NCBI GenBank assembly: GCA_017470055.1
Contig: JAFUFD010000074.1
Location: 1 to 64,000 of the forward strand
DNA length: 64,000 nucleotides
Source of the DNA: Prevotella sp.
GTDB taxonomy: Bacteria > Bacteroidota > Bacteroidia > Bacteroidales > Bacteroidaceae
Direction: 5' to 3'
Part shown: one piece after another, positions 23,265 to 60,437 of the stretch
Position numbering within the stretch: the first letter of the stretch is position 1
Layout: every line of letters begins with the position of its first letter
The notes under the pieces: generated by a model
Databases searched by the model: none
Told to the model about the DNA's origin: nothing
The model's input: only the letters and a program-made list of their open reading frames with translations
Program-made: the position numbers and the translations under genes

Positions 23265-24965
23265 TTATCTCACCACATATTTCTTCCCGTTCTGGATGAA
23301 GATACCGTGCTGTGGATTTGAGACTTGTTGACCTTGGAGGTTGTAGATGCGAGGGTCTTGGTTGTCGTAAATGAGAACCTTCCCTATGTCAGTAGTACCA
23401 CTTTTTAGTTCAATTTTAGTGATGACGATTCCTGTTCCATGAACGATGAGTCCTTTCTTCGTGAGTGTGTTGAAAATCGACTCGTCGAAAGTGACAGTAA
23501 TAGTCTGTGATGCTCCGACCTCTCCATTGGGACCGTAGTCGCCACTATATGTCTTTCCGTCAATCGTGAAAGATGCTTTTTGCCCCCAGTCACCGTAATG
23601 GAACTGGATGTCAGAGTAACCACTGTTTTGTTTGGAGAAGGTAATGAGGAGTTTGATAGATTTATCGAAAGCAGCAAAGAGATTACTTGCAATAGAGATG
23701 CCGTCCCCCCAGTTGATGACCTTCTCTCCCTCAAAGCAGACAATATTTGTGATGTCTTTGATTTCTGGATATTGGTAGGAGTCGGCATTGCCATAGAAAG
23801 ATTTCACGATCGTTTTAGCAATATCAGGTTGTGTGAATACTGGATTGGAGCGGAAAAGACCGTCAGAAAGTCCCATCCAATAGAAAGTAGCGATGTTCTT
23901 GGCTTTGGTCTTCTCTACGAAATACTGTACGAACTCCAAGTACTTCTCTGGATCCTTTGCATAGTCGGTCTCGCTTTGGTCGACATTACTGGTTCCCCAT
24001 TCTCCCATAATCACAGGTCCCTTGGTCAGGAGGTAAGAGTTAAGTTGATTGATAAGGTCATCCGTCTCGCTCTTACCACTGGCTAAAGTGGGGTAGGCAT
24101 GAACCTCAAAGGCGATATGACCACTACCAGCAGTCGCATCTGTAGGTAGTTTCATCTCTTTTAGAGGATCTTGTAAATGACTGTTCCAATGTCCGCCTCC
24201 ATTGCTTGCGCAATAGGTATTGACGACGAGGTTGCGCTTGGCGTTATTGCCCCCCGTGGCACGTACGACATCAACGAAACTCTGGGCGTAACTGTTAATA
24301 GCATTGTAAACATCGGTAGCCTCTGTCGCATGATGTCCTCCTGATCTCGCAAATGTGGCAAAACACCATGAGTTATAATCATCCAGCATCTCGTTATAAC
24401 TTTCGAAAAGCAGTTTCTCACCATAGTTCTTAAACTCCTCGGCAATCTGTTTCCAGAGATACTCATATTTTGCCTTCGCCTTGTTGTAGGAGTTCGTGCT
24501 GGCATGCAGCCAATGACGACCGACTTGTTTTCCGTCAGAGACATCAGAGCCTGTGTCATGATGTACGTTAAGGATACAGTAGAGACCTTGGTTGATGACA
24601 TAGTCTACTACCTCGTGTACACGAGCCATCCATGCCACATCCACCTTGCCATTGGCATCCATGTGATTATACCAGGTAACAGGTACCCGGATGGCGCCAA
24701 ACCCCGCCTCCTTCATTATCTTCATCAACTCTGGCTTGGTATAGGGCTGTCCCCAGCAGGTCTCGGAGTCCAATCCTTGCTGTCCCCAGAAATTACTTTT
24801 CGTCTCATCCCAATAGTCTTTATTCTGCGAGTTTGCATCCAGTGTATTGCCTAAGTTCCAGCCTACCCCCATGTTCTTTACAGCCTCTGTAGCGGTCTCG
24901 AAAGATTGTGCATGGAGTATGCATGCTGATGTGATAAGCATACAAATAGTTAGTAGTCTTTTCAT
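23265..24965 (-). CDS. GH5 endoglucanase, secreted, with beta-sandwich module and C-terminal sorting-like tail
   Basis: A 566-residue secreted glycanase. A signal peptide (residues 1-19, ending ILHAQ) precedes a family 5 catalytic domain to about residue 390: MGVGWNLGNTLDA, ETCWGQPYTK, the acid/base Glu in FESYNEML and the nucleophile Glu in VIMGEWGTSN. This pattern is close to subfamily GH5_4 (cellulase, lichenase or xyloglucanase). Residues about 400-530 form a beta-rich module that is probably carbohydrate-binding. The end (RIYNLQGQQVSNPQHGIFIQNGKKYVV in part) is the tail common on Prevotella secreted enzymes. It is on the opposite strand between serA and the HIT gene. Confidence 0.9.
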   Translation of the reverse strand: MKRLLTICMLITSACILHAQSFETATEAVKNMGVGWNLGNTLDANSQNKDYWDETKSNFWGQQGLDSETCWGQPYTKPELMKIMKEAGFGAIRVPVTWYNHMDANGKVDVAWMARVHEVVDYVINQGLYCILNVHHDTGSDVSDGKQVGRHWLHASTNSYNKAKAKYEYLWKQIAEEFKNYGEKLLFESYNEMLDDYNSWCFATFARSGGHHATEATDVYNAINSYAQSFVDVVRATGGNNAKRNLVVNTYCASNGGGHWNSHLQDPLKEMKLPTDATAGSGHIAFEVHAYPTLASGKSETDDLINQLNSYLLTKGPVIMGEWGTSNVDQSETDYAKDPEKYLEFVQYFVEKTKAKNIATFYWMGLSDGLFRSNPVFTQPDIAKTIVKSFYGNADSYQYPEIKDITNIVCFEGEKVINWGDGISIASNLFAAFDKSIKLLITFSKQNSGYSDIQFHYGDWGQKASFTIDGKTYSGDYGPNGEVGASQTITVTFDESIFNTLTKKGLIVHGTGIVITKIELKSGTTDIGKVLIYDNQDPRIYNLQGQQVSNPQHGIFIQNGKKYVVR

Positions 24966-27688: not shown

Positions 27689-30067
27689 TTATTTAATCAC
27701 CTTTTGGGTCGTGCCATCACTCTTGCGGACGATGTTGATGCCATGTTGAGGTTGGCTGAGGCTTTTGCCGTCGATGCTATAGTATTGAGCATCTTGGACT
27801 TTGCCTTGCTTGATGGTATTGATGGCGGTAGTGCCGATGACAGCCTTGATGGCAAGACTCTTGCAGGTTGGCATGGTGAAGGTATATAGCGCACCGTTCA
27901 CGTGGCTGGTTGTGGGGGTGCCGTTGGTTGCTGTGGTAGTTATATCCCAGCCAGTCACTTGCTTGCCATCCGCTGGTGTCGCCTCAAGGGTAATGCTGCG
28001 ATTGGCGAAGAACTTGCCATCGAAGATGCCTTCGCTCAGTTCTACGTCATTGATGCTGATTTGTATATTCCCTAAGTCTGTCATACCCTTATTGATAGTC
28101 AGAGGGGTGGGAGTGCCCAGATGGTAATAGTCGGCAAGTTGTTGGTAGAAATAGTTGGTACGCTGACTGATCCAGTTGCGGGCTGTGGTAAGTTCGTCAT
28201 TGTATGTGCCAGTTACATCCCACACCCACCATTGCTTGTACATCTCCTTGTGTTTCATCAACTCCGTTTTGACGAGTTCATACATAGAATCCCATACGGC
28301 ACGTGTCCCTTTCTCGTTGAGGAAGTCGCCCATATAGACGGCACAGCGGTCGATGAACATATTGTAGAAGTCCTGATCCTCCATCAAACGACGGAACAGA
28401 CGAGTATGCTCGTACTGGTTTGCCCAGTTCCTGTTTGCGTCATAATTGGGGTTGTACAGCCAATTGATGGTCTTATAAGAAGCGGATGAGCCATAGAGCC
28501 CCAGTCCGAAATCGGTGTCTTTGGCTATCCAGCGCCATCTGCCTCCCTCTGTCTTAGGACGCCACATGACGATATTGTTACCAGGGAAGTCTTGGTTGTT
28601 GTAATAGAGGTTCATAATCATGAGGTTGGCGAACTCTCCGCAGTCCATCCACTGCTCGTATTCGGCAAGTGTATGTCCATGCTCCGCATAGAAAGCCTTG
28701 AAAGCGTTGTAGTTGTCCCTGTCGCCCTCCTTCAGTTCGTCCCAGTTCTCAAACATGTCAAGGTCTTCCAGTCCGTCGTAGTACGTATAGATATTATCCT
28801 CATTAGAGCGGTCACGAATGTTCTCGATACCTTTATACACGCCATTGATATAGACGATGACGGGTCGCCATGACTGCCAGTCGAGGTCTACATGCTGAGC
28901 CATGTTGCGCTGGATGATGGCATCACGCATATAGAGATAGTCGAAGTCATTACCCGCATTGCGGAGAGAGATGGACTTGAAGTCGGTGATGCCAGGACGC
29001 TGGTCGGGGAAGAACTCATACTCCAGTCGCTTGGTGCCGAAGCGCTTGTTGGCATATATGGCAAGGGACTTGAGCGGGTTGCTGCGGGTGGCGCCTCCCA
29101 TGATGCGTGTCTCGCAGAGTTGGTTGAGTTTACTTTCCTCGTTGCCGTTCTCAAAATACTCGAAGTTGATGGGGCGTCGCCAATTGAACTCATAGTTCTT
29201 TTTGCCACTTTGATAGGTACCGTCCACGTAGATACCGATCTTACTGTCGTTCAGATATTTGTTATCCGTCACGATAGACACGACAGGCAAAGTCAGGCTC
29301 CGTTGAGTGAAGAAGATATATGAATGGACGGTGGAGCGTGGTGACAGATAGCCGTCGCAGAATATTTTGGCACGGATGACATGGTTGCTGCTGATGGTGA
29401 TAGGCGAGGTATATAAAGCACTCGTTTTGGTGGGTTCAGCACCTGTAGTGGTATAGCGTATCTCGGCTCCTTCAGGAGTCCCCTCAGGAAGCGAGAGTGT
29501 CAGCGTGTGTGTGTCGGATGATGTAAAGACACCACCTTTCTCACTGAATACAGGTTCCCCTAAGATATCCTTTACCGTTTGTCCGCAGTTTGTTTTCTCA
29601 GGTGTCGGCTCAGTCTGATAGCCCCAGGAGTCGCTGCCGTCTGTCTTTCGTCCGTAGGCGATGTTCGGTGCAGGCTGTTTCTTCATCCCTGTTACTTGAT
29701 CGACAATCTCACCGCCTTTGAATAGGTAGACCTCACCGTCTTTGCCAGACTCCAAGCGGAAATCGGTGTGCATGCCAGTCTCTGCCTTGTCGCAATAAAT
29801 GACGACAAACTGTTTAGGGGCTATTGTCTGACTTGGCAGTTTCCATGCTTTTTTCTCTTTGTTGTTCTTACCTATCTTGTAGTCACTGAGGTTGACGGCA
29901 GTAGAACCATTATTATAGAGTTCAACCCAAGAGTCAGGAAAGTCGTTCAGGTCATCCATGATGCAATCGATGTTTGATTGCATCAACTCATTAATCACTA
30001 ATTGTGCGTGGGCTGGTGCCGTCATTGCCAACAGGCATCCTGCAAAAATGGTTGATATAAGTCTCAT
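27689..30067 (-). CDS. Secreted CotH-kinase-domain protein with lamin-tail domain
   Basis: A 792-residue secreted protein. After a signal peptide (residues 1-21, PAHAQ) comes a lamin-tail domain (LVINELMQSN ... WVELYNNGSTAVNLSDYKIG, about 22-130), then a chitobiase-like beta domain (GAEIRYTTTGAEPT) near 190-250, and a CotH domain from about 280 to 620 with SISLRNAGNDFDYLYMRDA, NNQDFPGNNIVMWR and RWRWIAKDTDFGLG. CotH proteins are atypical protein kinases in spore formers; the role in Bacteroidales is unknown and could be surface or polysaccharide related. The C-terminus YYSIDGKSLSQPQHGINIV is a sorting-like tail. Confidence 0.85.
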   Translation of the reverse strand: MRLISTIFAGCLLAMTAPAHAQLVINELMQSNIDCIMDDLNDFPDSWVELYNNGSTAVNLSDYKIGKNNKEKKAWKLPSQTIAPKQFVVIYCDKAETGMHTDFRLESGKDGEVYLFKGGEIVDQVTGMKKQPAPNIAYGRKTDGSDSWGYQTEPTPEKTNCGQTVKDILGEPVFSEKGGVFTSSDTHTLTLSLPEGTPEGAEIRYTTTGAEPTKTSALYTSPITISSNHVIRAKIFCDGYLSPRSTVHSYIFFTQRSLTLPVVSIVTDNKYLNDSKIGIYVDGTYQSGKKNYEFNWRRPINFEYFENGNEESKLNQLCETRIMGGATRSNPLKSLAIYANKRFGTKRLEYEFFPDQRPGITDFKSISLRNAGNDFDYLYMRDAIIQRNMAQHVDLDWQSWRPVIVYINGVYKGIENIRDRSNEDNIYTYYDGLEDLDMFENWDELKEGDRDNYNAFKAFYAEHGHTLAEYEQWMDCGEFANLMIMNLYYNNQDFPGNNIVMWRPKTEGGRWRWIAKDTDFGLGLYGSSASYKTINWLYNPNYDANRNWANQYEHTRLFRRLMEDQDFYNMFIDRCAVYMGDFLNEKGTRAVWDSMYELVKTELMKHKEMYKQWWVWDVTGTYNDELTTARNWISQRTNYFYQQLADYYHLGTPTPLTINKGMTDLGNIQISINDVELSEGIFDGKFFANRSITLEATPADGKQVTGWDITTTATNGTPTTSHVNGALYTFTMPTCKSLAIKAVIGTTAINTIKQGKVQDAQYYSIDGKSLSQPQHGINIVRKSDGTTQKVIK

Positions 30068-52612: not shown

Positions 52613-54274
52613 TTAGGTATATAGGAATCGTTTGATGCTTCGTTTCGGGGTTTTGGCAAATTCCTCAGTGCGTATCTCGATCTCTGTTATCTTCTCGTAG
52701 GCAGGCAACTGCTCGTTGAGTTGCTGACGGTTCTGCTCCATAATATTCTTGATGTCGTTCTCATTGAAATTCATGTTCTTTGCCTCGTCATAATCAGGAT
52801 AGACAAGTCCCACGAGTTTCGTGTCACGCTGTACAACCACGCTTTCCACCACCATGGTCATGGAGTTCAGTTTATCCTCAATCTCCTCTGGATAGATATT
52901 CTGTCCGTTAGGACCGAGGAGCATGTTCTTCGAACGTCCGTTGATATAGACATTACCGTCGTAGTCCATCGTGCCAAGGTCACCAGTATGATACCAGCCT
53001 TCGTCATCGAGTGTCTCCTTGGTCGCTTCCTCGTTCTTATAGTAGCCCAGCATCACGTTCAGTCCACGGGCAAGGATCTCACCTGGCACATGGGCTGGGT
53101 CTTGGGAGTTGATTTTCACCTCCATGTGGTAGGCAGCCTGTCCGCATGATCCTTGTGCAAAGGTATGCCAGTCACGATAGCAGATAATCGGAGCGCATTC
53201 TGTGGCACCATAGCCCACGGTATAAGGGAACTCTATCTTCTTCAGGAAAGTCTCAACCTCCTGGTTGAAGGCGGCACCTCCGATAATCACCTCGTAGAGT
53301 TCTCCACCAAATGCCTTGACGACCTCGGCACAAATCATTTGACGTACCTTCTTCGAGATGACAGGCATCGACAGCAACAGGCGCATGCGGTTATTCTGTA
53401 TCTTGGGGAATACTTTCTTACGGATAATCTTCTCGATGACCAATGGAACGGCGATGATGATCTTCGGCTTGATCTCCGCAAAAGCCTGTGCGATAATGGC
53501 AGGCGAGGGAATGCGGTTGAGGTAGTAGACATGACAGCCATGCAGGAACTCAAAGATAAACTCGAACGCCATACCGTACATGTGTGCCATCGGCAGGATG
53601 CTGATGACACGGTCGCCAGTATTGATGATCTTACCTAACACATGCTCTGCGAAGTCGTAGTTTGACCACAGGGCGCGATAGGGTACCATCACGCCTTTCG
53701 AAAAGCCAGTCGTGCCACTGGTGTAGTTGATCATGGCAAGTTCCTCACCGTCTTTCTCGATATAGTATTTGACATGCTCCTTACGGAAGAACTTGGGATA
53801 TTTCTTTCCATAGAGTTCATTCAAGTGCTCACGGGCGTAGGTCAACTTATCCGTACGGGAGACCATCAGCGAATAGTCGGGATTGTTGATGATTCCCTCC
53901 AGATGAGGCATCTGCGTAGGGTCTATCTGCGTTACTACATGGTCACCCACAAAGAGCAGTTTTGCATCAGAGTGATTGACGATGTTATGGATCTGGTCAG
54001 CCATGAACTCGTGCAGGATAGGGACGGCAACGGCTCCGTAGGTCAATGTGGCAAGGAAGGCAACCGCCCACTGGCTGGAGTTACGTCCGCAGAGGGCTAT
54101 CTTATCACCTTTCACTACACCGCAATTCTCAAACAGGATGTGTAACTTCTCTATCTTGCGAGCCACATCATGAAACTGTAAGGTGGCTCCCTTGTAGTCT
54201 GTCAGCGCATCCATGTCCCAGTGGTCGATGATGCTCTGCTGTATGGCTTGGTTAAAACTTGGAACGTTTTCCAT
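52613..54274 (-). CDS. Long-chain acyl-CoA ligase, copy 1
   Basis: A 553-residue adenylate-forming enzyme that activates fatty acids with ATP and CoA. Motifs are the P-loop INYTSGTTGFSKGVM near residue 193, VGYGATECAPII (adenine-binding), the YHTGDLGTMDYDGNVYINGRSKNML hinge and the catalytic Lys near the C-terminus (KTPKRSIKRFLY). It is strikingly similar along its whole length to the next gene upstream on the same strand, a tandem paralogue. Substrate range is unknown; a membrane-lipid or scavenging role is likely. Confidence 0.88.
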   Translation of the reverse strand: MENVPSFNQAIQQSIIDHWDMDALTDYKGATLQFHDVARKIEKLHILFENCGVVKGDKIALCGRNSSQWAVAFLATLTYGAVAVPILHEFMADQIHNIVNHSDAKLLFVGDHVVTQIDPTQMPHLEGIINNPDYSLMVSRTDKLTYAREHLNELYGKKYPKFFRKEHVKYYIEKDGEELAMINYTSGTTGFSKGVMVPYRALWSNYDFAEHVLGKIINTGDRVISILPMAHMYGMAFEFIFEFLHGCHVYYLNRIPSPAIIAQAFAEIKPKIIIAVPLVIEKIIRKKVFPKIQNNRMRLLLSMPVISKKVRQMICAEVVKAFGGELYEVIIGGAAFNQEVETFLKKIEFPYTVGYGATECAPIICYRDWHTFAQGSCGQAAYHMEVKINSQDPAHVPGEILARGLNVMLGYYKNEEATKETLDDEGWYHTGDLGTMDYDGNVYINGRSKNMLLGPNGQNIYPEEIEDKLNSMTMVVESVVVQRDTKLVGLVYPDYDEAKNMNFNENDIKNIMEQNRQQLNEQLPAYEKITEIEIRTEEFAKTPKRSIKRFLYT

Positions 54275-54283
54275 ATACTTCGA

Positions 54284-55942
54284 TTATTTATATAAGTAGC
54301 GTTTTATACTTTTTTTAGGGGTCTTCTCAAACTCCTCCTTATGTATCTCTATGGTATGGATACGGCTATAGGGGGGAATCATCTCATTAAGTTGCTGACG
54401 GTTCTGCTCCATCACACCCTGCAGGTCCTCGTCAGAGAATCCCATCTCTTTCACCTCATCCATATCTGGATGTACCAAGGCGACAAGATGCTCGTCACGT
54501 TGTACGACAATGCATTCGCTGACCATTGCCAAGGAGCCAAGTTTGTCCTCAATCTCCTCTGGATAGACATTCTGCCCATTGGCACCTAGTAGCATGTTCT
54601 TCGAGCGTCCACGGATGAAAACATGTCCGTCAGTAGACATCGTACCAAGGTCGCCAGTATGATACCAACCGTCCTCGTCCAGTACCTGACGTGTGGCTTC
54701 CTCGTTCTTATAATAGCCAAGCATCACGTTAGTGCCACGGGTGACAATCTCCCCAGGTATGTTCTGCGGGTCGTTCGACAGAATCCTCACTTCCATATGC
54801 TCCACTGCTGTTCCACATGAACTAGGCTCAAAGTCGTGGTAGTCGCTATAGGTAATCAGCGGAGCACACTCCGTAGTGCCATAGCCAACCGTGACGGGGA
54901 AATCGATGTCTATGAGGAACTTCTCTATCTCCTGATTCAAGGGGGCGCCTCCCACAATGACCTCATACGCCTCACCACCAAAGGCGGCATATACCTCCTT
55001 GCAGATGCGCTCCTTTACCTTCTTTGAGACGACGGGCATCTGCAACAATAGTTTGATGGCGTTACTCTGTATCTGGGGGAATACCCGTTTGCGGATAATC
55101 TTCTCGATAATCAAGGGCACTGCTACTATCAGATGGGGCTTAACTTCCTTGAAAGCCTCCGCAATGATAGCAGGAGAGGGCAGACGAGTCAGGAAGAAAA
55201 GATGATAGCCTGCGCAGAAGGGGAAGAGGAATTCGATAGCCTGTCCGTACATGTGTGCCATCGGCAGGATACTCAGCATCCTGCTGAACTTAGGCATATG
55301 GGGTGCCACCTTCTTCATGCAGAAGTCGACATTTCCCCACAGGGCACGGTATGGCAGCATCACTCCCTTGGAGAATCCCGTAGTGCCACTCGTATAGTTG
55401 AGCATACATAGTTCCTCGGGATCATCGATATACCAGTTAATATGGTCGGCACGGAATGCCATGGGGAATTTCTCTCCAAACAACTGATTCAGATGCTCGC
55501 GGGCATCCATCAGTTTCTCGTTTCGACAGGTATGCAGTGAGAAGTCGGGTAAGTTGAAGATACCTTCCAGATGGGGCATCTCCTTCTCATCAATCATGTT
55601 TACCACGTAATCACCTACGAACAGGAGTCTGGCACCCGAGTGATTGACGATGTTATGGATCTGTTCGCCATTAAACTCATGGAGTATCGGAACAATGATG
55701 GCTCCATAGGTCAGCGTGGCAAGATAGGCGACTGCCCAATGGGCAGAGTTACGCCCGCAGACGGCTATGCGGTCACCTTTCTCGATGCCGGCAGCCTCCA
55801 TCATGATATGCAGTTTCTCTATCTTGCGGGCTACGTCATGATACTGTAACGTGGTGCCTTTATAGTCAGTCAGAGCGTCGAGCAGCCAGTTTTCCTTAAT
55901 CGTCTTAACGATGTAGGAGTTAAAACTTGGTATGTCGTTCAT
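54284..55942 (-). CDS. Long-chain acyl-CoA ligase, copy 2
   Basis: A 552-residue paralogue of the preceding ligase, with LNYTSGTTGFSKGVML, VGYGTTECAPLI, YHTGDLGTMSTDGHVFIRGRSKNMLLG and the KTPKKSIKRYLYK tail. The start at 55942 (MNDIPSFNSYIVK) was chosen because the longer frame reads through the promoter and inverted repeats. It is the first gene of the pair; copy 1 follows after nine bases. A candidate operator with two inverted repeats covers the promoter and the start codon. Confidence 0.88.
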   Translation of the reverse strand: MNDIPSFNSYIVKTIKENWLLDALTDYKGTTLQYHDVARKIEKLHIMMEAAGIEKGDRIAVCGRNSAHWAVAYLATLTYGAIIVPILHEFNGEQIHNIVNHSGARLLFVGDYVVNMIDEKEMPHLEGIFNLPDFSLHTCRNEKLMDAREHLNQLFGEKFPMAFRADHINWYIDDPEELCMLNYTSGTTGFSKGVMLPYRALWGNVDFCMKKVAPHMPKFSRMLSILPMAHMYGQAIEFLFPFCAGYHLFFLTRLPSPAIIAEAFKEVKPHLIVAVPLIIEKIIRKRVFPQIQSNAIKLLLQMPVVSKKVKERICKEVYAAFGGEAYEVIVGGAPLNQEIEKFLIDIDFPVTVGYGTTECAPLITYSDYHDFEPSSCGTAVEHMEVRILSNDPQNIPGEIVTRGTNVMLGYYKNEEATRQVLDEDGWYHTGDLGTMSTDGHVFIRGRSKNMLLGANGQNVYPEEIEDKLGSLAMVSECIVVQRDEHLVALVHPDMDEVKEMGFSDEDLQGVMEQNRQQLNEMIPPYSRIHTIEIHKEEFEKTPKKSIKRYLYK

Positions 55943-56009
55943 TGCACAAATTTCAAAATTTTGTGCAAAGGTAATATCTTTTCTGCACATTTGCAAAAAA
56001 AATGTGCAG
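55942..56009 (-). promoter_or_regulatory. Promoter and two inverted repeats upstream of the acyl-CoA ligase pair
   Basis: Minus-strand -7 box TACCTTTG (55973-55966) and TTTG (55997-55994). One inverted repeat, TTGCACAAA (55942-55950) with TTTGTGCAA (55960-55968), spans start codon and -7 box. A second, CTGCACAT (55983-55990) with ATGTGCAG (56002-56009), encloses the -33 box. The centres are about 41 bp apart. Confidence 0.6.
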
Positions 56010-56066: not shown

Positions 56067-57689
56067 CTATAGTCTGATCACCTCATCACAGAGTTCACTG
56101 ACTGTTGAGCGATGGGTGATAAAGATCATGGTTTTCTCCTGATAGGCAGCGAAGATACGGCGGTATAACTCTTGCTCTGTTTGCTCGTCGAGGCTGCTGC
56201 TGATTTCGTCAAGCAACAGGATGTTGCCAGGACAAAGCAGTCCTCTGGCTATGGCGATGCGCTGTGCCTGTCCCTCACTGAGTCCACTACCTCGTTCTCC
56301 CAGTTCGGTGTCCAGTCCCTGCGGTAATTCCTTGATGAAGTCAGCACAGGCGGTATGCAGTACGGCAAGCAGTTCCTCGTCAGCGGCATCGGGCTTGGCG
56401 AGTTGGAGGTTATAGCGGATGGTACCACTCATCAGACTGTTTCCTTGGGGAACGAAAACGAAATGGCTCCTGGTCTCTGAACTGACAACTTCCTCGCGAA
56501 CCTTATTATATATATAGATGCTACCGTTTATAGGCTGGATGAATCCCAGCAGCAGGCGGAATAGGGTTGTCTTGCCAATGCCCGTCTCTCCCATGATGGA
56601 GGTTTTGCTGCCTACGGGGAAATGATGGGTGAAGTCGTTGACCACCAGTCTGTCACCTTTCGCATAACGGAAAGTGACATGCTCCATGCGGATACCCTCA
56701 GCCATTGTCGAGATGGACTTGTTATGACTGGCAAGTTCCTGGTCGGCATGCTCCAGTTCGCTGAGGCGGTCGATGCTCGCTGTGGCATGGATGATGCCAG
56801 GTACCATGTTCAGCAGTTGTAGTATCGGGTGCTGTATCATACCCACCAGTTGCAGGAAAGAGGTCATCACACCAAAGGTGATGGTGCCGTTGCGTAAGCC
56901 GAAGCCTCCCCAGATAAAGGCAAGCAGATAACCCAGTCCAAAGGCGCATCCCATCACGAGACGGGTGATGACGGTGAAGCGTGTGCGTCGCATCACATTA
57001 CCACGTAAACGCTGCTGCATGCTGTCCAACCGCTCTGTCACCCATTGCTCACTACCTAGGGAGCGCAGCACGGCATTATGCTCCATGGTCTCCTGCACCT
57101 GCATCTGAATCCTGCTCTCATCTTGTCGGATGTCGAGCGTCATCTGTCGTAGTTTTCTGGCGATGAGTTTCCCGAAGATAATGGCGAGAGGCGTGAGCAG
57201 TAGCAATGCCCATGCAAGGCGGGTGTCAAACCATCGCATCAGCAGGAAGGCGCCACAGAGTTGTATCATGGTGACAGCCATCTGGGGTAGGGTGTCTGTC
57301 GTCACCGTACTAACCTGCTCGATATCCTTGGCGAGGCGTGAGGTGACATCTCCTGAGTGGATGGTCTTGTCGCTGAAGAGTTGCCGACGGAACAGGCTGC
57401 TGAAGATGCGGAGCCGCAGGGCGTTGGTCTGGTAGACTCCTGCCGTCGTGGTCATGAAGTAATATACCTGTCGGAGGATGACACCACCGACGACAGTCAT
57501 GACGAGGAATCCCACCATCCATGCCACTTCCTCATCAGAGCCTGTGCGGATGGTCTCGTCGATGAACAGACGACTGAGCCACACCATCAGCAACCCCAGT
57601 CCCACCTGTCCGATGCCGATGATGATGCGTACCGCTGAGTTCCAACGGATGCCACGCATGTTATGCCATAGCCATGCGACGTATCTCAT
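56067..57689 (-). CDS. ABC transporter with fused membrane and ATPase domains (peptide/lipid exporter type)
   Basis: A 540-residue ABC half-transporter of the exporter class. Five to six membrane helices fill residues 15-300. The ATPase has Walker A in SIMGETGIGKTTLFRLLLG near residue 375, a Q loop, the signature LSEGQAQRIAIARG and Walker B LLLDEISSSLDE, with the switch His in FITHR. It starts one base after the pqqD-like stop and ends the four-gene operon, so it most likely exports the product matured by the upstream proteins. No N-terminal C39 peptidase is present. Confidence 0.88.
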   Translation of the reverse strand: MRYVAWLWHNMRGIRWNSAVRIIIGIGQVGLGLLMVWLSRLFIDETIRTGSDEEVAWMVGFLVMTVVGGVILRQVYYFMTTTAGVYQTNALRLRIFSSLFRRQLFSDKTIHSGDVTSRLAKDIEQVSTVTTDTLPQMAVTMIQLCGAFLLMRWFDTRLAWALLLLTPLAIIFGKLIARKLRQMTLDIRQDESRIQMQVQETMEHNAVLRSLGSEQWVTERLDSMQQRLRGNVMRRTRFTVITRLVMGCAFGLGYLLAFIWGGFGLRNGTITFGVMTSFLQLVGMIQHPILQLLNMVPGIIHATASIDRLSELEHADQELASHNKSISTMAEGIRMEHVTFRYAKGDRLVVNDFTHHFPVGSKTSIMGETGIGKTTLFRLLLGFIQPINGSIYIYNKVREEVVSSETRSHFVFVPQGNSLMSGTIRYNLQLAKPDAADEELLAVLHTACADFIKELPQGLDTELGERGSGLSEGQAQRIAIARGLLCPGNILLLDEISSSLDEQTEQELYRRIFAAYQEKTMIFITHRSTVSELCDEVIRL

Positions 57690-57690
57690 C

Positions 57691-57963
57691 TTATTCTGTT
57701 ACTACACCTTCTTTCTGCCATTGTCCGACGATAGCAGAAACGTCTTTCTGGGCAACCTCGTTAGTCACGTCATATTCCTCGCACAGTTTCTCTGTGAGAG
57801 CATCGATGGTGAAGTCACCCATCGCCAGTGCCTGTTTCCACAGCCACGCCGCAGTCTCATTCAGGGCGAGCAGTCTGCCGAAGTTGACGGCTTCCAGTCC
57901 CTCACCTACAATCACGTTCTCGCCACACACCTCGCGTAGCACAAATCCTTTCTTAATATTCAT
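57691..57963 (-). CDS. PqqD-family peptide chaperone (RRE domain)
   Basis: A 90-residue winged-helix protein. The start at 57963 (MNIKKGFVLREVCGENVIVGEG) is chosen because its ATG overlaps the stop of the upstream peptidase gene (ATGA). LLALNETAAWLWKQALAM and TIDALTEKLCEEYDV are the hallmarks of PqqD/RRE domains, which bind leader peptides of ribosomally made modified peptides. No matching precursor gene is seen next to it. Confidence 0.85.
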   Translation of the reverse strand: MNIKKGFVLREVCGENVIVGEGLEAVNFGRLLALNETAAWLWKQALAMGDFTIDALTEKLCEEYDVTNEVAQKDVSAIVGQWQKEGVVTE

Positions 57964-58388
57964 AGTCTCCTGTATATTGCTAATATATATCTTCTGATAG
58001 GGCGCAACCACCACCACGCCTTGACGGCTCGTAGTCGCCACTTGCTATATAAGTCATGCTGCTTGCCATCGGCACTGACCACATGGGTAGCCCATGCCTT
58101 GATGTCGCTGACGGCACACTGCTCTGTCCCGATGATATTTCCATCACCCATCAGCACGACATGGTCGCCCTCGATGCGGATGATGCGGTGCACCACATAG
58201 CGACAGCCGTCGACCCACGCCAATACCACGTCACCAACCTTCGGACTGCCAGGCTTCTGAAGGACGACACTCTCCTTGCCGCCAATGATGAAAGGCAGCA
58301 TGCTGTTTCCCTTGACGGGCAGTGTCACACAGACTCCCTCGTTCACCAGTCGGGTGGCTTCCTCTAATATATGATGGTCACTGATCAT
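57960..58388 (-). CDS. S24/S26-family peptidase, Ser-His type
   Basis: A 142-residue protein. The start at 58388 (MISDHHILEEATRLV) overlaps the upstream stop by ATGA; a longer frame from 58517 lies inside the kinase-like gene and was not used. PVKGNSMLPFI carries the catalytic Ser, and RYVVHRIIRIEGD has His where bacterial signal peptidase I has Lys, as in SipW/SEC11-type enzymes. There is no clear membrane anchor except a basic C-terminus with aromatic residues. It may cut the leader of an exported peptide. Confidence 0.8.
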   Translation of the reverse strand: MISDHHILEEATRLVNEGVCVTLPVKGNSMLPFIIGGKESVVLQKPGSPKVGDVVLAWVDGCRYVVHRIIRIEGDHVVLMGDGNIIGTEQCAVSDIKAWATHVVSADGKQHDLYSKWRLRAVKAWWWLRPIRRYILAIYRRL

Positions 58389-59248
58389 CTCTCGACACTC
58401 TCCTGACATACCTTTGCCGCCTCCTCGTCGGGCAGACATTCCAGATGCCATATTCTGACGCTCTGGGCAAGCGCGTTCTCCGTCTGATGTAGTCCGTCGG
58501 CTATCCTGGAGTCCCATCGCTTGCCACTGATACTGGGCACTAACGCAGCGTATGCCTCAATACCTTTCAGGCGACGAATCTTGTTGTAGGGCGCCTGGCT
58601 AAGCAGGACGATACCCCCTAACGGATAACTCACATTGCGATAGCAGGGGGTCTTGCCACTCCACGGACTACCATAGACGGTGACATGCTCCTTATCGAAG
58701 ACACGCACCACGGGATTGTCGTCGTTCACCAAGGCGGTCCCATTGATATACTTCAGCCACAGGCGGGCATGGGTACTCTTTCCTGTGCCGCTCTTGCCAA
58801 GGAACATATATGCCTTGTCCTCGTGGCTGACCACGGCGGCATGAAATAGGGCGGTGCCGTGGGCTGCTGTCGCCAAGGCATAGAGCACCATCAGTGTATT
58901 GTCGATGGCAAGTTTGCGATACTGTCCCTTCACGATGAGCGTTCCCCCACGATAGTCATTCGAGCACACAAGAAAACCAGCCGTCTGGTGAAGCCAACTG
59001 AACTCGAACACTGACCTGCCGTCAGCCGTCTTACCACAGATAATCTCCTGTCCCTCATCGTCTTGACGCAGTTCCTCTGTATAGTCGACCCCCTCGCCGT
59101 CCTCGATAGTGATGGCAAAGGCTGTCTCGCCAGCAGGGGCATCGCCGCATAAGAACGGCTCGTAGTTTTTCATCAACTCAAAGTCGTCCGCTTCGGCTGT
59201 CACTCCAAACAAGTGCTCAGCCACCTTATAGTATTTTGTCTTTAACAT
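58385..59248 (-). CDS. HPr-kinase-like P-loop protein
   Basis: A 287-residue protein. The start at 59248 (MLKTKYYKVAEHLFG) lies six bases from a -7 box. The second half has a Walker A FLGKSGTGKSTHARLWL near residue 160, NDDNPVV and YGSPWSGKTPCYRN, which match the C-terminal catalytic region of HPr serine kinase homologues. The N-terminal half (about 1-130) is unlike HPrK and beta-rich. Such HPrK-like proteins occur with PqqD and peptidase genes in peptide-modification clusters. It may phosphorylate a precursor peptide or a cofactor, an inference. Confidence 0.8.
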   Translation of the reverse strand: MLKTKYYKVAEHLFGVTAEADDFELMKNYEPFLCGDAPAGETAFAITIEDGEGVDYTEELRQDDEGQEIICGKTADGRSVFEFSWLHQTAGFLVCSNDYRGGTLIVKGQYRKLAIDNTLMVLYALATAAHGTALFHAAVVSHEDKAYMFLGKSGTGKSTHARLWLKYINGTALVNDDNPVVRVFDKEHVTVYGSPWSGKTPCYRNVSYPLGGIVLLSQAPYNKIRRLKGIEAYAALVPSISGKRWDSRIADGLHQTENALAQSVRIWHLECLPDEEAAKVCQESVER

Positions 59249-59321: not shown

Positions 59322-60437
59322 TCAATCATAGGTTATACGGTTAGACAGCGCTTGATACAACTCCTTCGGCAACGCATGACGGTTTAGGAACAGGTAGGTC
59401 GTGTTTAGTTGGATATAGTCGCGTGACATATACCAGATACCCTTGTACTGTCCGTTCTCACCCCACGAATTCTTCACCATATAGTATGGTTTGCCATGCT
59501 CATCGACAGCCTTGCCGTAAATCAGCATCACGTGGTCATACGTGAACCGCCAGTTGTCCCACTGTTCCTGACGCAGTTCTTGTGAGGGTATCACGCTGTC
59601 TGGTAACATCGCCAGTCCAGCCCGTGTGAAATCGCCAGTCACATCACCGCCCCATGCCACTGTATAGCCTTCGTCCAGTGCTTTGTCCAATGTCTCCATC
59701 AATTGCTCGATGGGGATGTTGTAACTCGGTTTCAATCGCCATTTATAAGGTGCCTCGATGATGAACCACTTACCAAAGGGATGATGCAGGTAACTCGTCA
59801 GACTCACATAGTCGTCAAGGTCCAGCCCAAGACTCTCAGCGAACGACTTGGGCGTATACGTCTTTCCCTCATAGACAAAAGTCTCCGGACAGCGTCCTAC
59901 AAAACGCTCGATTACCGCCTGTACCGAGTCTTGCCAGTGGGATAGGGGTTCTTTGGCGTCCTTTCTCACGATGTTTTTCACCGTTTGCTCCAATAGCGGA
60001 AAGAACACATTGAAGTTCGCCAGCGAGTCGCCAGTCAGTGATCCTGGTGCCGGCATTGCCTGTTCAGGACAGATGCCATGCTGACGGATGACCTCCAGCA
60101 CATCATCGCACGAACCGCCTTCCGAGATCTGACTATATCCGTGCATCCGCACATAGTGTCTGGCACAGTCCATATAATCCTTATTCACCACAAACATCTC
60201 GCAGAGGTCGTATGTCCGTCCCGTCTTCCGCAGGATCTCGCTCTCGAAGTACCCCAACGTCGCATAGTCCCAGCATGTGCCACTACGATGTTGGTTCTTC
60301 ACACTTGTGATCGGCAGTTCTTTCACCGTCGTGAACATCTTACCCACCGACTTGTTGCTTGCCTGACGTTGCAGGTTCTCTTGTGCCGATGCCGTGATTG
60401 TCAGCATCATGGCAAATATAATGATTACTTTTCTCAT
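59322..60437 (-). CDS. Secreted papain-family (C1) peptidase, bleomycin-hydrolase-like
   Basis: A 371-residue cysteine peptidase. Start at 60437 gives a signal peptide (MRKVIIIFAMMLTITASAQ). The active Cys is in NQHRSGTCWDYATLGYFESE near residue 52, the His in TYDHVMLIYG near residue 310 and the Asn in VKNSWGENG near residue 330. This is the order of the PepC/bleomycin-hydrolase branch. It may act in the periplasm as an aminopeptidase. It lies 73 bases upstream of the HPr-kinase-like gene on the same strand and could belong with that system. Confidence 0.88.
   Translation of the reverse strand: MRKVIIIFAMMLTITASAQENLQRQASNKSVGKMFTTVKELPITSVKNQHRSGTCWDYATLGYFESEILRKTGRTYDLCEMFVVNKDYMDCARHYVRMHGYSQISEGGSCDDVLEVIRQHGICPEQAMPAPGSLTGDSLANFNVFFPLLEQTVKNIVRKDAKEPLSHWQDSVQAVIERFVGRCPETFVYEGKTYTPKSFAESLGLDLDDYVSLTSYLHHPFGKWFIIEAPYKWRLKPSYNIPIEQLMETLDKALDEGYTVAWGGDVTGDFTRAGLAMLPDSVIPSQELRQEQWDNWRFTYDHVMLIYGKAVDEHGKPYYMVKNSWGENGQYKGIWYMSRDYIQLNTTYLFLNRHALPKELYQALSNRITYD

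Follow-up and report, generated by a model that had tools for sequence, protein, structure and literature searches.

The question raised by this locus is what a peptide-maturation cassette acts upon when no peptide is encoded beside it. The window considered here (64,000 nt, positions 1 to 64,000 of contig JAFUFD010000074.1 in the Prevotella sp. assembly GCA_017470055.1) carries at 56067-59248, on the minus strand, an operon whose four genes encode an HPrK-like kinase, a Ser-His-Asp peptidase, a recognition element of the PqqD type and an ATP-binding cassette (ABC) exporter. I will refer to the genome containing the window, that of a rumen Prevotella, as the host genome. The answer reached below is that the operon is probably the maturation and export cassette of a pathway for ribosomally synthesized and post-translationally modified peptides (RiPPs), similar to that of the linear polyphosphorylated peptides (LPPs), and that it acts in trans on dispersed precursors paired with secreted proteins. 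The genes and their residues, the gene order, the precursor family, its co-occurrence with the kinase and its pairing with other genes were observed by computation.

The four-gene operon is real. Its first gene (58385-59248, minus strand), read from an ATG start (an alternative TTG would extend it to 59284), encodes the HPrK-like P-loop kinase and is followed on the same strand by genes for a predicted leader peptidase of the S26/S24 fold (57960-58388), a discrete RiPP recognition element (RRE) of the PqqD type (57691-57963) and the ABC exporter, with membrane and ATPase domains (56067-57689). In the terms of the LPP pathway, these are LppK-like, LppS-like, LppB-like and LppD-like, respectively. 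The close packing on which the original prediction was built is confirmed: two four-base overlaps (58385-58388 and 57960-57963) and a one-base gap ahead of the ABC gene.

Against Pfam, the PqqD protein scores 55.3 bits with PF05402 (cut-off 23.4) and the peptidase 30.4 bits with Peptidase_S24, PF00717 (cut-off 23.3), while the exporter is assigned by ABC_membrane and ABC_tran. For the HPrK-like protein no Pfam model reaches its cut-off (Hpr_kinase_C gives 12.7 bits), and its NCBIfam matches, to ScmC (E 6.5e-6), HprK_rel_A (1.5e-4) and HprK_rel_B, are all below the cut-offs. NCBIfam models of the CydC, CydD and MsbA type give the ABC protein 229 to 238 bits, each short of its cut-off, and neither Pfam nor NCBIfam finds a peptidase domain in it. 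Alignments show the residues expected to matter: in 69 kinases, the window's included, the SGxGK core of the P-loop (S153 G154 G156 K157), H136 and Asp177 of the NDD stretch are invariant; in 34 peptidases Ser29, His67 and Asp82 are invariant; in 43 RREs Asn35 is invariant and Asp74 is conserved in at least 90%. When compared with solved structures, the peptidase profile has signal peptidase IB as its best PDB match (E 0.0018), and the RRE profile matches TfuB1 (E 1.9e-6, 31.1 bits), PbaB1 (9x90; 7.8e-5, 25.9 bits) and LppB (9x8z; 0.037, 17.3 bits); the single sequences of the kinase and the peptidase gave matches that were too weak. The HPrK-like and PqqD-like pair is also found in SynChlorMet and HPr-rel-A cassettes (NCBIfam ScmC, ScmD, HprK_rel_A, PqqD_rel_X), from which the present case differs in that all matches lie below the curated cut-offs and in that the window's cassette has no radical SAM (S-adenosylmethionine) gene.

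No precursor was visible in the neighbourhood to begin with, and none has emerged: when the open reading frames (ORFs) of the 64-kb window were scanned with a loose regular expression of the peptide motif, four matched, none convincingly, and profile search gave no match on the window's contig. The precursor exists nonetheless, outside the window. The original prediction had called for a listing of short genes near such cassettes, and when the short ORFs around the cassettes of related genomes were clustered, a family of peptides of about 37 to 57 residues appeared, beginning MKKxYxxPxMxVVELxxxxxLLxxS and continuing to a variable end; the general pattern is a leader KKxYxxPxMxVVxLxxxxLLxxS and then a variable core. 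A profile (A1) built from 29 peptides of cassette loci identifies 19 family members in the host genome when the limit is set at E <= 10; 15 remain at E <= 1e-3. This bears out the suggestion that the precursor might be encoded elsewhere. The YxxP motif of the leader is present in all 19, with a one-residue insert in one of them. In G055, a genome from another family with a kinase 55% identical, the same search finds 17 peptides, and 16 of these have a pairwise identity of 58% over the 18-residue leader and 13% over core positions 4-18. A conserved leader with a variable core is the pattern of a RiPP. In 13 of the 19 host peptides and 11 of the 16 from G055, the distance from the Tyr to the conserved Ser is 20 residues; LLxx, or a sequence close to it, comes directly before that Ser. 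Many of the host cores (L113-L131) are acidic, and several share, by eye, a stretch resembling (S/G)R(E/L)(L/M)xx(D/E) near the end, possibly a second conserved element.

Do the peptides belong with the cassette? The neighbourhoods were taken from a scan of species genomes with the kinase, in which at least 587 relatives were confirmed and the best 80 loci kept. Most of these come from Prevotella and other Bacteroidota, many of them from the rumen, and 13 from metagenome-assembled genomes of Fibrobacter. In order to lessen circularity, a second profile was built from the 19 host peptides alone, which are unlinked to the host cassette. Over the 1.12 Mb of the cassette loci it gives 29 matches, which fall in 22 of the 80, as compared to 6.3 expected from its genome-wide density in the host (Poisson 4e-11). 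In 380 kb of other stretches from genomes G000 and G055 it gives no match, where only about 2 would be expected. Together with the window, these background stretches (12 from G000, and those from G055) have only two genes for the tailed proteins described below, against about 4 expected; because they were picked by hand after the places of precursors and tails were known, and because so few matches are expected in them, genome-wide densities are the better yardstick.

The kinase and the precursors also occur together across genomes. Within a sample of 201 genomes of the family, precursors are found in 111 of 164 HPrK-positive genomes but in 6 of 37 HPrK-negative ones (Fisher 1.4e-8), and within a sample of 295 genomes of the order, in 6 of 44 and 1 of 251, respectively (Fisher 5e-5); both samples include the host genome itself. 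Twelve other genomes of the family sample have a kinase at least 59% identical to that of the host. Among the matches listed, 11 of the 12 have precursors, and in at least five (G480, G466, G424, G395 and G438) a precursor lies no more than 4 kb from the kinase, for which the chance is about 2e-6 under rough assumptions.

It might still be supposed that the YxxP peptides have nothing to do with the cassette, both being common in rumen Prevotella and Fibrobacter, and that the peptides serve another system, for example radical SAM maturases. The six HPrK-negative genomes that have peptides fit that view, as do three loci (L074, L084 and L090) in which genes of a single cluster, radical SAM/SPASM proteins in the two that were scanned, accompany a KKFEKP peptide and a second PqqD gene. 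Linkage of precursor and cassette in 22 of 80 loci tells against it, as do the precursors of the close-kinase genomes, and the host genome has a single PqqD gene. I consider this explanation unlikely.

The survey of gene order proposed by the original prediction concerns the cassette itself. With genes counted at a threshold of 60 bits within 4.5 kb of the kinase, 53 of the 80 loci have all four genes on one strand in the order HPrK-S26-PqqD-ABC, three have them in a different order, and two have the kinase on the opposite strand. The full set is present, for example, in the cultured commensals Prevotella sp. tf2-5 (L034) and P. aff. ruminicola Tc2-24 (L054). A nucleotidyltransferase gene of the NTP_transf_5 family adjoins the cassette genes in 20 loci (PF14907 in the one scanned). 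It is not in the window's operon, and three PF14907 genes lie elsewhere in the host genome (L191, L192 and L193, on contigs C62, C125 and C72). Apart from NTP_transf_5, no gene family is repeatedly found next to the cassette across the 80 loci, the remaining flanks varying from locus to locus. A non-peptide role for the cassette, for example in glycan export or as a housekeeping function, would have some precedent in the capsule loci where LPP and paeninodin clusters are often found (PMC13381572) and in the likeness, below cut-offs, of the ABC protein to exporters of the CydCD/MsbA type. Such a role had been foreseen as something a conserved neighbourhood might reveal; no glycan gene family, however, recurs around the 80 loci, and the idea is highly improbable.

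The closest functional parallel is provided by the LPPs, described in 2026 from the cluster lppA-K-B-S-D-N of Paenibacillus alginolyticus and called restricted to the Bacillota (PMC13381572). There the RRE LppB binds the YxxP motif, LppK adds phosphates to Ser3 of the core, LppS (catalytic residues S29, H68 and D93) removes the leader when it is presented by LppB, LppD is termed an export pump, and LppN showed no effect (PMC13381572). The two systems have in common an HPrK-like kinase (with weak matches in the present case), a Ser-His-Asp peptidase resembling signal peptidase I, a discrete RRE and an MsbA-like exporter, as well as a YxxP leader followed by a conserved Ser and the lack of a cyclase in the cassette. 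If the host RRE is aligned to LppB (9x8z), its Asn35 pairs with N33 and its Asp74 with D70 (with a numbering offset of 18), the residues of LppB that hold the Pro and the Tyr of YxxP (PMC13381572).

LPP clusters contain an NTP (nucleoside triphosphate) transferase, which here adjoins the cassette in a quarter of the relatives. There are also differences. LPP clusters contain one to three precursors, whereas the 19 host precursors are unlinked to the cassette. The LPP leader, YxxPxVLxHQxIxFETxxS, has 18 residues from Tyr to Ser; the present one, YxxPxMxVVxLxxxxLLxxS, mostly 20. LPPs belong to the Bacillota, the present system to the Bacteroidota and Fibrobacterota, where its precursors are paired with genes of secreted proteins. 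The pathway appears to work as LPP does, but I do not file it in the published family, since LPP is stated to be restricted to the Bacillota and since by profile the RRE is closer to those of lasso pathways than to LppB. Searches of the literature for such a system outside the Bacillota, judged from listings and the beginnings of abstracts, turned up no description of the gene set other than PMC13381572, and the words 'Bacteroid', 'Prevotella' and 'Fibrobacter' are absent from its main text. What is new here is the occurrence in other phyla, the dispersed precursors and the secreted-protein partners.

The proposed course of events is then as follows. Precursors encoded elsewhere in the genome, each with an N-terminal leader bearing YxxP, would be bound at that motif and presented by the PqqD-type RRE. 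The HPrK-like kinase would phosphorylate the conserved Ser immediately following the leader (the last residue of LLxxS), and the peptidase would remove the leader, plausibly after LL, a cut that would make this Ser residue 3 of the core, as in LPP. The ABC protein would export the product, to which the NTP_transf_5 protein, where present, may add a further group. The logic of binding, modifying, cutting and exporting that was first read from the domains has thus gained support from the conserved gene order, from the co-occurring precursor family and from a described pathway with the same parts (PMC13381572).

The RRE, which is of the lasso type by profile, and the YxxP leader invite another explanation, that of a lasso pathway with its cyclase and B2 protease encoded elsewhere, in which the kinase and NTP_transf_5 tailor a lasso peptide of the paeninodin type. 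Phosphorylated lasso peptides of that type indeed share with the present system an RRE, an HPrK-like kinase, an NTP transferase and an ABC exporter, and one of five peptides scanned weakly matches the NCBIfam paeninodin model (13.6 bits, cut-off 27). I set the lasso reading aside because the B2 cysteine protease (Transglut_core3) has no match in the host genome at E <= 0.001, its place being taken by the Ser-His-Asp peptidase. There is no cyclase in the cassette, and only NTP_transf_5 recurs beside it in the 80 loci (no search for Asn_synthase was made). Furthermore, the paeninodin type has a WxxP leader and a Gly in the RRE, as compared to YxxP and Asn35/Asp74 here (PMC13381572). A lasso product is accordingly quite unlikely.

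The peptides on which the LPP-like pathway would act are encoded at scattered places. In the host genome 17 of the 19 begin from -5 to +250 nt behind a gene whose protein ends in a tail with the consensus YDLxGRRVxxPxKGxYIxNGKKVIIK (15 tail genes, two of them bearing two peptides), and the other two lie 20 and 33 nt in front of lipoprotein genes. The genome (3.39 Mb) has 43 tail matches at E <= 1e-3, and of the 15 best, 14 are accompanied by a peptide; since paired tails were among those from which the tail profile was made, this ranking is biased. Of the further tails fetched beyond the best 15, none has a peptide found by the profile except the weak tail of C111. By chance, about 0.2% of genes would start directly behind one of the 43 tail genes, and among 253 genes in the window and a further 240 kb none does.

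Other genomes, chosen by hand, were compared with the host. All five peptides in the Fibrobacter genome of L077 lie behind tails, several of them being members of the A1 training set. In G055, 13 of 17 peptides by rule (15 by eye) are directly in front of a lipoprotein gene, one more being cut by a contig end; the count by rule compares with 10 out of 136 genes in the background (Fisher below 1e-9). S. baroniae B14 has one peptide behind a tail and one in front of a lipoprotein gene, and in G494 (P. aff. ruminicola Tc2-24) two of five precede lipoprotein genes, one by rule and one by eye. Ten lipoproteins adjacent to precursors (for example L113 1687-2532, and those of L165, L172 and L186) passed no Pfam cut-off; their weak matches are to DUF4969, Lcl_C, Fib_succ_major and others.

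The tails themselves resemble, in a comparison by eye, the short C-terminal domains (CTDs) of the type IX secretion system (T9SS) of Prevotella intermedia, sharing an early TGI, the motifs YDLxGRR and KGxYI and a Lys as the last residue (PMC11969387). The T9SS translocon SprA/Sov is found in the host genome (PF14349, E 3.9e-223), and the tail region in four tail proteins scanned matched no Pfam or NCBIfam model. The passages of PMC11969387 on short CTDs mention no following peptide gene, and they call P. intermedia the sole species for which such CTDs have been reported, whereas tails of this type are seen here in rumen Prevotella and Fibrobacter (L042, L073, L080, L113-L131). Within the window, two protein ends of the tail type are found on the minus strand (23268-23396 and 27728-27832), with no precursor after them in the motif scan.

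Every precursor gene of the host has as its partner a gene for a T9SS-tail protein or a lipoprotein, and the most likely site of action of the product is therefore beyond the inner membrane, together with the paired protein. It is possible, and I offer it tentatively, that each peptide is a dedicated partner (a ligand, cap or anchor) of the neighbouring T9SS-secreted protein or lipoprotein, that one cassette of kinase, peptidase, RRE and exporter matures them all in trans, and that the arrangement is common to the Bacteroidota and Fibrobacterota.

Several considerations weigh against the LPP-like pathway acting in trans. I infer RRE binding, phosphorylation, the cut site, peptide export and a surface role, and lasso RREs score higher than LppB with the RRE profile. 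Of the 80 loci, 22 lack at least one of the four genes at that place, in some through a contig end, and 58 have no precursor within the flanks that were fetched. Four of the 19 host peptides are weak (E 0.0018-1.0) and were retained for their place behind tail genes; since the host peptides were found by A1, which began from cassette loci, the test with the host profile is only partly independent. Pairing with tails is not universal (none of 17 peptides in G055, none of five in G494), and three of the five in G494 have neither a tail nor a lipoprotein partner. As to co-occurrence, 53 of the 164 HPrK-positive genomes of the family sample have no precursor at E <= 1e-3 while six HPrK-negative ones do, the HPrK query also picks up other HPrK families, and relatedness inflates both the co-occurrence and the pairing statistics, so that the p-values are too small. 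Finally, the host assembly is 6.84% contaminated.

The finding would move a RiPP family described as restricted to the Bacillota into two other phyla. Mining based on clusters is likely to miss such a pathway, because its cassette and precursors are separate. The tie between peptides and particular secreted proteins offers a first handle on the purpose of phosphorylated linear RiPPs, and, with the leader motif and the paired genes to go by, the prediction can be tested directly in cultures of rumen Prevotella.

The genes that flank the cassette in the window fare less well. The papain-like gene at 59322-60437, which had been suggested as an added protease, adjoins the cassette only in the window and in L032, the nearest kin of the host (a Prevotella relative 96% identical), and it was rejected as part of the system. 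The acyl-CoA-synthetase-like genes downstream (52613-55945) are found next to the cassette in the window and three other loci only (L032, L033 and L034) and were rejected as clients. Flanking proteins in general, proposed earlier as possible clients, do not persist as neighbours across the 80 loci, which makes them improbable clients. The large tail proteins, considered as clients on the strength of their flanking the cassette, gave way to the unit of peptide and tail found throughout the host genome.

A few observations on the relatives may be added. In five Fibrobacter loci (L066, L072, L073, L077 and L078) only the kinase and the peptidase are found at that place, and the eight Fibrobacter rows included in the kinase tree (of the 13 loci) need two changes and fall outside a Bacteroidota clade of 42 rows. 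The related unit with the KKFEKP peptide, which contains Cys, occupies L074:46-3924, L084:660-4109 and L090:1339-3989, with a protein like radical SAM/SPASM maturases in L074 and L084 and the second PqqD gene; the unit in L074 has a second HPrK-like gene as well. Genes of cluster 7 lie directly upstream of the cassette at L064:6319-8001 and L092:6489-7988, and also in L081, L085 and L093; those of L064 and L092, the two scanned, are M6-type metalloproteases with a weak match to a T9SS-dependent family. In Prevotella ruminicola KHT3 the kinase (L110:8001-8782) is split across two reading frames.

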